From: Thermodesulfobacteriota bacterium | Lineage (GTDB): Bacteria > Desulfobacterota_D > UBA1144 > Nemesobacterales > UBA2774 | Length of the DNA stretch: 53,595 nt | NCBI GenBank assembly: GCA_021604765.1 | Contig: BQJP01000018.1 | Location: 1-53,595, forward strand | Direction of reading: 5' to 3' | Part shown: positions 48,233 through 52,667 of the stretch, piece after piece | Layout: every line of letters starts with the position of its first letter | How positions within the stretch are numbered: position 1 is the stretch's first letter | The notes under the pieces: generated by a model | What the model saw: the letters and a program-made list of their open reading frames with translations, nothing else | Database searches by the model: none | What the model was told of the DNA's origin: nothing | Program-made: the position numbers and the translations under genes

Positions 48233-48757
48233 ATGAGTGATGAAATCAATACATTTAAAGTTTATGAGCTTCAGCCATATAATCCTTATTGCAATTTAAC
48301 TGTCATCTTAACATTGAGAAACTTAAGTTCTTTCTGGCAACTAGAATGCTTTGTGGTGAATACTGGTGAATTGTATTATGAAAGCAATAAAAGAATAATA
48401 ATGGAGCCGGTCGTCTTAAATGTAACTCCACCCGAAATTTCTATTGACTATATACACCCTCAAAGGTTGATTGAGAATTTTGATGAGTTTTTATTTAATC
48501 AAGGAAAAGAGCATATTGAGAATAGAATAATAAATGAATACTACAAAATTTTTGAAGATAATGAGACAACTCGCGTTCAATGTTTTCTGATTAAGTTAGT
48601 AGAAAAAGAGTGGTTTCATCTTATTGGTTTACATATGCGTGGATTATGCGATGATCAATTAAAAGAAGCTTATTCAAAGTCCAGAAACAGCAGCTTCTTG
48701 GAATATATAAATAAGGTTATGGATGTAGCACCATTTGATATAAAGAGACACGAATGA
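48233..48757 (+). CDS. unknown protein coupled to a TIR-domain gene
   Basis: 174 residues, no signal peptide, membrane helix or family I recognise. AGGAG precedes ATG 48233. The N-terminal half is strand-rich (YNPYCNLTVILTLRNLSSFWQLECFVVNTGELYY), and the C-terminal half looks helical, from about residue 80 (RLIENFDEFLFNQGKEHIEN) to the end. An immunoglobulin- or sensor-like fold is conceivable but unproven. Its TGA overlaps the ATG of the TIR gene (ATGA at 48754-48757), so the two products are made together. An immunity-type partner, activator or sensor of the TIR protein is the natural hypothesis. Confidence 0.8.
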   Translation: MSDEINTFKVYELQPYNPYCNLTVILTLRNLSSFWQLECFVVNTGELYYESNKRIIMEPVVLNVTPPEISIDYIHPQRLIENFDEFLFNQGKEHIENRIINEYYKIFEDNETTRVQCFLIKLVEKEWFHLIGLHMRGLCDDQLKEAYSKSRNSSFLEYINKVMDVAPFDIKRHE

Positions 48758-49659
48758 ACGATATGAAAGATGTATTTATTTGCCATGCTGGTGAGGATAA
48801 AGAAGAGGTTGTAAGGCCCCTATGTAAAGCTTTAGAAGATAACAGTATTTCCTACTGGGTAGATGAAGGTGAAATTAGATGGGGTCATAGTCTGACAGGT
48901 AAAGTTAGTGAGGGTTTAGCTAAATCGAAATATGTCATAGTAGTACTAAGTAATACATTTGTTACTAAGTCATGGCCAAAACTAGAACTAGAAGCTTCGC
49001 TAAATATGGAAGCCTCATCTGGTGATATCAAAGTCCTTCCTTTGATTGTTGGTGACCAAAGTACAAAAGATGTCATATTTGAGAAATATCCATTATTGAA
49101 TCATAAAAGATATATAATCTGGTCCGGTGAAACATCTTTTGTTATAGACGAGCTCAAAAAAGTTTTAAATTTATTCATAGAAGATGTAGCTGAAAAAGAA
49201 AATGGTGGAAATAAACGAAATATAAGAATTCCACGAATTAAGAAAGATTACACGCAATTAGAAAGAGATCGTTTTATTGAAGGTGCATTTTTAGAAATTA
49301 AGAATTATTTTAAAGAAGCAATGTCAATACTTGGAAAAGAATATGATGAGATAGATACGAATTTTTCTGAAATATCTGAATATGAATTCGTCAACAAAAT
49401 TTATCTAAATGGCGATTTAAAATGTGGTTCTAAGATTTGGATTAGTAGCCCAAATCTTATTGGTTATGTCGAGGGCGCATCGTTTCGTACGGGGACTTCA
49501 GAGGCTTTTAATGAAATGATACATCTTAATGATGAAAGTGATGAATTATCTTTGAAATTTGGTATTGGAAATTTTGGAATTATACGTGATAAAGCTATGA
49601 CACCTTTAGAAACAGCGGAAAGCTTATGGGAACGATTTACTATAAAACTCGAATCTTAA
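48754..49659 (+). CDS. TIR-domain protein with C-terminal sensor-like domain
   Basis: 301 residues. The TIR domain covers about 4-140: KDVFICHAGEDKEEVVRPL, YWVDEGEIRWGHSL, YVIVVLSNTFV and KSWPKLELEASL. In the W-x-x-x-E-L segment E78 sits where the catalytic glutamate of NAD-cleaving TIR enzymes lies, so enzymatic activity is plausible. After a basic linker (about 150-160) a second domain of about 130 residues starts with RDRFIEGAFLEIKNYFKEAM and ends LETAESLWERF. I have seen related tails on other bacterial TIR proteins. No membrane helix. Coupled to the upstream gene. It is probably a defence or stress effector, inferred from domain type. Confidence 0.88.
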   Translation: MNDMKDVFICHAGEDKEEVVRPLCKALEDNSISYWVDEGEIRWGHSLTGKVSEGLAKSKYVIVVLSNTFVTKSWPKLELEASLNMEASSGDIKVLPLIVGDQSTKDVIFEKYPLLNHKRYIIWSGETSFVIDELKKVLNLFIEDVAEKENGGNKRNIRIPRIKKDYTQLERDRFIEGAFLEIKNYFKEAMSILGKEYDEIDTNFSEISEYEFVNKIYLNGDLKCGSKIWISSPNLIGYVEGASFRTGTSEAFNEMIHLNDESDELSLKFGIGNFGIIRDKAMTPLETAESLWERFTIKLES

Positions 49660-50463: not shown

Positions 50464-50711
50464 TTTTGATCTCCAAGCTTCTTCGGTCCTACTAACAAAC
50501 TAGTATCGATATGGTGCTTAGCTTTGTCAAATTTGTATCTCTACCTTTTTTGCGAAGACGTGTTTAAGCTGGATGGCTGTGCCAAATAAGAAACCGAGTC
50601 GGAACTCCATTAAACGACCAGCGTTAGTTAGCTTAATTCTAATAGAATTATATTGGTGAGCAGTATATACTTTTGGTCTAATACTTTTATCACAAGGGAA
50701 GTGTGTATAGA

Positions 50712-51458
50712 ATGGGCAATAATAAAAATCACTCATGGCTTGGGTTACTTCTTTTAGGAGTCTTCCTTTCGGCAGGAATTATCATAGCAACTCTTGTTAT
50801 ATCAAAAACAGTTGAACGAGTAAAAACTCAGAACCAAAGGATTCAGGTTAAAGGATTTGCTGAACGCACGATCACCTCGGATATTGCTTCTTGGAGCGGG
50901 CAGATAACAACCAGGTCCCCTGAGCTTGTTACGGCGTATGACAACCTTCAAGCGGATCTTGAAAAAGTGCTCTCGTATCTTCAACAGCAAGGAATTCGTA
51001 AGGAAGATGTCTCTATACCTTCGGTTATAACAACAATTCAGTATAAGAGAACCACTCAAGGCATGTCTACAAATATAGTAGAGGGGTACATCTTAGTCCA
51101 AAGAGTAAATATCACATCCTCGAATATAGAGCAAGTTGCCGACATTGCCAACAAAGTTACTGTACTTATTAAAGAAGGCATAGAATTTGATTCTTTTTCT
51201 CCTCAATACTTTTATACGAAACTTGATGACATGAAAATAGAACTCCTTGGTGAGGCCACAAAAAACGCCGGCATGAGAGCCAAGCAGCTTGCTGAAAATA
51301 GTGGAAGCAAGGTGGGGTCTTTGAAATACGCGAGTCAGGGTGTTTTTCAGATAACCCCTGTCTACTCAACCCAGATTTCCGATTACGGAACCTATGATAC
51401 CACTACAATAAAAAAGAGTGTTAAAGCAGTGGTCACTATGGAATATTCTATTCAGTGA
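50712..51458 (+). CDS. SIMPL/DUF541 domain-containing protein
   Basis: 248 residues from ATG 50712, with AAGGGAAG ending 11 bases upstream; a GTG at 50703 would sit too close to that site. An N-terminal membrane anchor (about 10-31) is followed by an extracytoplasmic SIMPL domain: IQVKGFAERTITSDIASWSG, LSYLQQQGIRKEDVS and GYILVQRVNITSSNIEQV, then MRAKQLAENSGSKVG. The family forms oligomeric lattices or interacts with partners in diverse bacteria; its function is not established. It is divergent from the enoyl-CoA hydratase-like gene. Confidence 0.87.
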   Translation: MGNNKNHSWLGLLLLGVFLSAGIIIATLVISKTVERVKTQNQRIQVKGFAERTITSDIASWSGQITTRSPELVTAYDNLQADLEKVLSYLQQQGIRKEDVSIPSVITTIQYKRTTQGMSTNIVEGYILVQRVNITSSNIEQVADIANKVTVLIKEGIEFDSFSPQYFYTKLDDMKIELLGEATKNAGMRAKQLAENSGSKVGSLKYASQGVFQITPVYSTQISDYGTYDTTTIKKSVKAVVTMEYSIQ

Positions 51459-51650
51459 TTGTATAATTCCCCTTCTTCTATGATTTATTGCTACATCTAC
51501 TTGTAACTTTTTGAACTGATTTGCTAACGTAATTCTAATTACTTCTTAATGGGGAGCAGCACAAAGTCCAAATGTTCAGTTTGTATAAACTAGAGCAATC
51601 TTGAAAATTTAGTTATTATTACTACCTTAATAATTTAGGAGAGTGAGAAC

Positions 51651-52154
51651 ATGCCTTTATTTGAATATGAATGTGATACCTGTATGGATGGTTACAACAG
51701 GGATATAGATGCATTGGTTGAGAAACCTAATAAAACCAACGCAGCCAAAATCAAGAAGAATAATGACGGTATCCTCTATGTTGAAATTACGGATGACGAG
51801 AAGCGTAAACAGATTTTTGCCTTAGGGGAGAAAAGTAACAGACGTGGCCCAAGAAGATTTCAATATAAAATTAGCAAGAATAAAGTTCTCTATTTAGAAC
51901 TCAAGGATTTTAGGTTCAGCTCTTTAATCTTGGATGACAAAGATGAGAAAGCTTTGAGATGCCCGAATTGTAACAGTAAAAAACCACGTAGAATATTCTC
52001 AACTTTTAAAGCGATCTTTGATGATAAAAGCAAGAGAGAGCCTGGTCCTGGGGACGATCTTAGGTGGCATATGGAGTATAAAGAGCAGAAAGACGAAGAA
52101 CAGCAAAGCAACTGGGTTGGTCAGGACCATCTAAATCAGTACTTCAATAGATAA
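51651..52154 (+). CDS. FmdB-like protein with split zinc ribbon (copy 1)
   Basis: 167 residues. The start MPLFEYECDTC is the FmdB regulatory-protein beginning, where a second CPxCG normally follows within about 35 residues. Here the CxxC pairs are at C8/C11 and C104/C107 (RCPNCNSKKPRRIFSTF), so an insert of about 90 residues separates the two halves of the ribbon. The insert is charged and mixed alpha/beta (ILYVEITDDE, VLYLELKDFRFS). The C-terminal tail is polar and disordered-looking. A strong AGGAG precedes the ATG. Next to a paralogue with the same architecture; a nucleic-acid- or metal-related role is only inferred. Confidence 0.82.
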   Translation: MPLFEYECDTCMDGYNRDIDALVEKPNKTNAAKIKKNNDGILYVEITDDEKRKQIFALGEKSNRRGPRRFQYKISKNKVLYLELKDFRFSSLILDDKDEKALRCPNCNSKKPRRIFSTFKAIFDDKSKREPGPGDDLRWHMEYKEQKDEEQQSNWVGQDHLNQYFNR

Positions 52155-52181
52155 TTGTTGAAAATCAGGAGGAGTTAAATA

Positions 52182-52667
52182 ATGCCGCTTTTTGAATATG
52201 AATGCACAGTATGCAGGAACAACGTAGATAATTCTTTAAAGCAGATATCGAAAAATGTTACTAAGAAAGCTATATCAGATTTAGTAAAGAAACATGACAA
52301 TATCAATCATATAGTTGTAGTTGACCTTGAGAAAGAAGAGGTAGTTGCTGAGCATGGAAAGCGTGATGAGGAATGTGTGGATCTGAATTTTTACTTAAAC
52401 GAGGGAACCATCCTCACATTTTTCAATTTACAAAAGAACTACCGTTTTTCAGAACTTATCTATGAACCAAGTGATGAAAAGAAAATAAAATGCCCATATT
52501 GCGAGACAAAGAAAGTTGAGAAAGTAGTATCAAGTTTTGCTTTTACGAGTGATCTATCTACAGATATGCCAAAGCCGGATTTGTCAGGTCTGCCGCCATC
52601 TGTAAGAAAAAACACTGCTCTCGGCGACTATATTGAAGAAAAAGACAGACCCAAGAAAAACAGATAA
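52182..52667 (+). CDS. FmdB-like protein with split zinc ribbon (copy 2)
   Basis: 161 residues starting MPLFEYECTVC, with CxxC pairs at C8/C11 and C104/C107 (KCPYCETKKVEKVVSSF), exactly the same spacing as in copy 1. The insert sequences are highly diverged, but both keep a hydrophobic IVVVDLEKEE/LYVEITDDE-like strand and the RFSELI / RFSSLI segment before the second pair. The tail after the ribbon is Pro/Asp/Lys-rich. GGAGGAG precedes ATG 52182, 27 bases after copy 1. The pair is evidently an old tandem duplication, most likely co-transcribed. Confidence 0.82.
   Translation: MPLFEYECTVCRNNVDNSLKQISKNVTKKAISDLVKKHDNINHIVVVDLEKEEVVAEHGKRDEECVDLNFYLNEGTILTFFNLQKNYRFSELIYEPSDEKKIKCPYCETKKVEKVVSSFAFTSDLSTDMPKPDLSGLPPSVRKNTALGDYIEEKDRPKKNR

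Follow-up and report, generated by a model that had tools for sequence, protein, structure and literature searches.

The window, i.e. the whole stretch of 53,595 nt that was analysed, contains two adjacent genes on the + strand, A and B, with a gap of 27 nt between the stop of A and the start of B and a good ribosome-binding site in front of each (Table 1). Both proteins start with MPLFEYEC and carry CxxC pairs at residues 8-11 and 104-107, as the sequence-only reading had described. In profile searches, positions 22-46 of TIGR02605 corresponded to residues 97-119 of A and positions 18-49 to residues 93-122 of B. A promoter scan gave no score exceeding those of shuffled sequences.

Table 1. 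Features of the A/B locus in the window.
Feature	Coordinates	Strand	Basis or remark
Shine-Dalgarno-like AGGAG	51637..51641	+	9 nt 5' of A; read from sequence
Gene A (167 aa), conserved tail and nested domain in an FmdB-type ribbon	51651..52154	+	ORF, profile matches, orthologues
A residues 1-11, ribbon strand 1 with the first CxxC (C8, C11)	51651..51683	+	PF09723 positions 1-11
A residues 12-87, nested alpha2-beta4 domain	51684..51911	+	AlphaFold2 at moderate confidence; insert profiles of A and B match
A residues 88-115, ribbon strands 2 and 3 with the second CxxC (C104, C107)	51912..51995	+	TIGR02605
C-terminal tail of A (RIFSTFKAIFDDK...WVGQDHLNQYFNR), predicted to be poorly ordered	51996..52151	+	Constraint; mostly low pLDDT
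Shine-Dalgarno-like AGGAGGAG	52167..52174	+	7 nt 5' of B; read from sequence
Gene B (161 aa), nested domain in the second FmdB-type ribbon	52182..52667	+	ORF, profile matches, orthologues
B residues 1-11, ribbon strand 1 with the first CxxC	52182..52214	+	PF09723; C8/C11 invariant
B residues 12-87, nested alpha2-beta4 domain	52215..52442	+	AlphaFold2 pLDDT; insert absent from L017, L018, L054
B residues 88-115, remaining ribbon and second CxxC	52443..52526	+	TIGR02605
B C-terminal tail (SSFAFTSDLSTDMPKPDLSGLPPSVR...YIEEKDRPKKNR)	52527..52664	+	Kept in long and insert-free B

Distribution and synteny

The A/B pair was found in 53 out of 58 genomes of the phylum Dadabacteria, in a few of them as a partial pair at a contig end. 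The five genomes without the pair also lack hisIE, the next gene. True absence was therefore rejected; the gaps look like assembly gaps, and the region is probably unassembled in these genomes. In G040, where the pair is missing, a close match to the enoyl-CoA hydratase lies at a contig end. Outside the phylum, no A/B match was obtained at 1e-5 among 137 genomes, and none in three other phyla that were taken whole (40, 291 and 132 genomes); a fourth phylum was represented in the search by one genome only. Relatives of A/B were not found in the viral contigs and plasmids searched either.

In most families, the genes follow one another as enoyl-CoA hydratase (-), A (+), B (+), hisIE (-), and era lies farther upstream. 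Family f7 has different upstream genes and retains A, B and hisIE. Across the phylum, A and B form a unit of two genes that is inherited vertically. Four loci (L004, L005, L016 and L019) are labelled Deltaproteobacteria or Thermodesulfobacteriales, yet carry the Dadabacteria locus; since those of them that were included in the A tree cluster within the phylum, their titles look mislabelled.

The neighbourhood in the window holds further genes. A TIR-domain gene (48754-49659) and a preceding 174-aa gene without a Pfam match, possibly a defence pair, lie between era and the enoyl-CoA hydratase gene and together occupy 48233-49659. They look recently acquired because era and enoyl-CoA hydratase are direct neighbours in near relatives (L005, L007). 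A SIMPL (DUF541) gene (50703-51458) is located between enoyl-CoA hydratase and A, where near relatives carry no gene at all.

Family placement and boundaries of the insert

PF09723 (Zn_ribbon_8) and TIGR02605 match A and B in two pieces flanking an insert. A scored 26.7 bits with PF09723 (cut-off 34.4) and 29.5 bits with TIGR02605 (cut-off 31.3), below both cut-offs, while B scored 31.6 and 38.6 bits, respectively, below the former and over the latter. Both proteins have the N-terminal MPxxEYxC and the first CxxC at about residues 8-11 that characterise FmdB. The second CxxC, which in FmdB follows about 17-20 residues after the first, is 92 residues apart from it in A and B of the window. The ribbon halves of A and B descend from FmdB; as the family-defining spacing is absent and A stays below the cut-offs, the two proteins are classed as a split form of FmdB, rather than as plain members. 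Ordinary FmdB proteins are also encoded elsewhere in the source genome, and the sequences of two of them were inspected. FmdB ribbons are widespread, but to our knowledge their function is unexplained and their biochemistry nearly unknown, and the open-access papers searched contained no study on the function of FmdB zinc ribbons or of the A/B pair.

The boundaries of the insert could be set by natural orthologues of B that do not have it. At three loci (L017, L018 and L054), B is replaced by a gene that adjoins A, bears B's tail and encodes only 87 aa. Its product is a canonical FmdB protein with CxxC at residues 8 and 30 (MPLYEYECLKCKHKFSEIIY...CPKC...) and a CxxC-to-CxxC distance of 18, and it scores 47-51 bits with PF09723 and 54-57 bits with TIGR02605, over both cut-offs given above. 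F89 of the window's B corresponds to F15 of the short form, which gives a net insert of 74 residues instead of the roughly 90 first estimated. The insert lies between C11 and the strand RFSELIY of the window's B, within residues 12-87. The RFSxLI segment, which had been counted as part of the insert, thus belongs to the second strand of the ribbon (KFSEIIY in the insert-free B). The C-terminal tail is the same in long and insert-free B. Given that these orthologues are built from the same two halves, the halves are regarded as one ribbon.

The insert and the whole proteins were compared with Pfam, NCBIfam, PHROGs and PDB sequences, and the insert remained without a family. A match to a common known domain, which would have spoken against a new one, was not seen in Pfam, NCBIfam or PDB sequence families.

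Cysteines and putative metal site

Every row, 50 of A and 45 of B, has C8 and C11, whereas the spacing of the second pair varies (CxxC, CxC, Cx5C, CC and once Cx5H). Two possible ligands (Cys, or Cys and His) are present at the second pair in all rows except two, one being a truncated fragment and one being masked in places. The persistence of two possible ligands through these spacing changes favours a retained, putative metal site. In each protein, the four cysteines likely form one predicted zinc site. At L034-L047 (family f7) and the f8 loci L060-L070, the second knuckle has become CxC in many B proteins and Cx5C or CxCx3C in the A proteins of f8, so the second half of the ribbon is drifting while the first is invariant.

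Homology of the inserts and order of events

The inserts of A and B had been said to have little else in common than length and one short segment. This holds for the pairwise comparison, with 29% identity, but not for the profiles: with all rows of the phylum, 70 of 75 columns aligned collinearly (P = 4.1e-7) with a score of 37.4, compared to 14.5 for the best of 40 column-permuted controls and 10.4 for the reversed profile. With a smaller set of rows, the comparison reached only E = 0.0014. The B-insert profile also matched A inserts in two deep-branching genomes. Midpoint rooting of the A tree puts its deepest split at family f8, and the insert is present in both copies there. Since the inserts are homologous, the insertion preceded the duplication. 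The assumption of a constrained additional domain that was placed inside an FmdB-type ribbon and then duplicated is supported by the homology and by the presence of both inserts in this deepest split.

All rows with a short B (g6, g9) or a broken B (g10, G006/L016) fall into one clade in the tree of A with a support of 99/89. It is nested in family f2, and its sister is a genome with full-length B. The broken B (L016 5001-5439; G006:C57:11671-12118), which comes from a MAG, has its frame disrupted inside the insert, of which a part is missing, and in L016 reading resumes ahead of RFSELIF in a different frame; either ongoing decay or an error in the assembly may explain this. The insert of B is dispensable in one clade, as it was lost there while A retains its own. 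Two other histories were rejected, namely, independent insertion into A and into B, as the inserts are homologous, and insert-free B as the ancestral form, as it sits within a clade where its sisters are full-length.

Constraint

Within genus, pN/pS was 0.15 (A) and 0.20 (B) for the inserts and 0.05 (A) and 0.15 (B) for the tails. The mean column identity was 0.67 (A) and 0.60 (B) for the inserts and 0.83 (A) and 0.78 (B) for the tails. Constraint on the proteins is thus strongest in the tail. Conservation of the tandem across the whole phylum and the pN/pS of its inserts show that it is not a chance arrangement. The divergence of A was below that of Era (0.58 vs 0.70) and of HisIE (0.57 vs 0.67) in the same genomes, and A and B can therefore be considered as slow, core-like genes. 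In the mirror-tree analysis, A and B correlated with 0.91-0.93, which is not above the values for hisIE, ECH (enoyl-CoA hydratase) or era, and thus no excess of coevolution was detected.

Predicted structure

The AlphaFold2 model of B had a mean pLDDT of 80.5, with values >90 in blocks covering residues 11-90. It contains helices at residues 9-24 and 28-37 and strands at 41-48, 53-59, 66-72 and 77-83, and the ribbon strands at 3-8, 88-92 and 112-115. The model of A has the same elements at moderate confidence (mean pLDDT 69.6). The models are not independent because their input alignments mixed A and B. The tails have low pLDDT (A mostly low). The insert is thus predicted to be a compact alpha2-beta4 lobe flanked by three ribbon strands.

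Foldseek against the PDB gave nothing reaching E 0.001 for either model. The top match for both was the Cache domain of KinD (E 0.033 for B and 0.16 for A), followed by CqsR, DraK, MglB, LAMTOR and Rag C-terminal domains. At these E values and with no Pfam match, neither the fold nor the sequence matched a Cache/PAS-like sensor significantly. The Roadblock/LC7 topology (alpha-beta-beta-alpha-beta3-alpha) was not found either, as the predicted alpha2-beta4 order is without its second helix and E was at least 0.2. No credible match was present in a viral fold library.

Discussion

The data lead to the following history. In the common ancestor of A and B, an alpha2-beta4 domain of about 74 residues entered the ribbon behind the first CxxC and ahead of the second strand. 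Tandem gene duplication then took place ahead of the radiation of the phylum, and later the domain was cleanly removed from B in one sub-clade. We hold this anatomy and history, with insertion, duplication and loss, with high confidence; the homology of the inserts, the synteny and the constraint are likewise regarded as shown.

Concerning the role of A and B, we infer zinc binding, docking through the tail and an adaptor role. The ribbon would close round one zinc ion and provide a rigid platform, with the nested lobe displayed on one side and the long conserved tail on the other. The tail would be disordered alone and dock on a partner found throughout the phylum, e.g. a core machine, while the lobe, alone or paired with that of the other protein, would offer a second binding surface. 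To serve as adaptors or regulators in this way would be the likeliest role of A and B. Judging from the insert-free orthologues and the conserved tails, the basic working unit seems to be ribbon and tail, the lobe being an added surface that most lineages retain in both copies and that was dropped from B in one lineage. The adaptor mechanism alone is a tentative proposal, held at less than even confidence; the explanation as a whole, history and mechanism together, is slightly favoured. It would be speculative, and is rated as unlikely, that A and B are a phylum-defining two-protein regulator with a new alpha2-beta4 domain nested in a minimal zinc-ribbon scaffold, both proteins being core, probably essential factors whose tails dock on the machinery for transcription or translation in Dadabacteria.

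Other explanations were weighed against the adaptor reading. The nested domain might sense a small molecule or the redox state in the manner of Cache/PAS or Roadblock domains and relay ligand binding to the ribbon, which would make A and B one-component cytosolic sensors. KinD Cache ranks first among the PDB folds for both models, and the alpha-alpha-beta4 order is compatible with Cache/Roadblock-type sheets. Nevertheless, no match had E ≤ 0.001 (best 0.033 for B and 0.16 for A, with about 58 residues aligned), the lobe is without the middle helices of Cache/PAS/Roadblock folds, and the insert is less conserved (0.60-0.67) than the tails and shows no evident invariant pocket, so that a sensor seems improbable. 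That A and B form an obligate heterodimer via their nested lobes, as complementary halves after duplication, would agree with their homologous inserts and with the fact that they are always paired in a fixed order, with no single-copy genome where the locus is intact. Such a lobe-to-lobe dimer is disfavoured because B has lost its lobe in one sub-clade while A keeps its own there, and the mirror-tree correlation of 0.91-0.93, not exceeding that of hisIE, ECH or era, also speaks against it; its probability is considered low.

The insert could as well be a structural ornament that tolerates change and contributes little, with ribbon and tail doing the work in both proteins. The insert-free B of g6 and g9, from which it was cleanly lost, the frame-breaking deletion within it in g10 and the tails being conserved above the inserts point in this direction, but it was kept in all A and nearly all B lineages of a deep phylum with a pN/pS of 0.15-0.20, and a mere ornament is accordingly doubtful. 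Far less probable is that the halves are not one ribbon and each CxxC is a separate metal binder or thiol site. The pairs are 92 residues apart and the spacing of the second varies widely in B; still, the insert-free orthologues are canonical ribbons made from the same two halves, and the model restores three ribbon strands round the lobe.

A domain nested within another domain is an old general idea. Nesting in so small a ribbon, fixed in a phylum, duplicated and cleanly reversed in one copy, is unusual, and no paper on the nested-domain arrangement of A/B was found among the open-access papers searched. The sister lineages provide a natural set of one protein with and without its nested domain and with an unchanged tail. 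A zinc ribbon of 40 residues was able to host, and then to lose, a domain of nearly twice its size, and the conserved tail is indicated as the functional end of both proteins. Dadabacteria are a little-known phylum, known almost wholly from metagenomes, for which A/B is a conserved marker pair.

Comparison with known systems

Cache domains (KinD, CqsR; PDB 4jgq, 9niv) resemble the lobe in having two consecutive helices and then antiparallel strands, and about 58 residues superpose at 2-3 Å. Unlike them, the lobe is nested, cytosolic-looking and without the remaining Cache fold, the E values are 0.03-0.3 and a sequence match is absent. Roadblock/LC7 proteins (MglB, LAMTOR and Rag C-terminal domains) were listed for the model of A, but differ by a large rmsd (E at least 0.2), by the helix between the second and third strands, which the lobe does not have, and by the lack of a sequence match. 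The Cache and Roadblock matches may be read as weak hints of a shared alpha/beta sheet in the models, not as family assignment. With the FmdB family, A and B have in common the MPxxEYxC start, two CxxC knuckles and the FxEx strand, and like its members they are small, cytosolic-looking and tail-bearing. They differ from it by 74 additional residues between the first knuckle and the second strand, by a profile match in two pieces and by long tails of their own kind.
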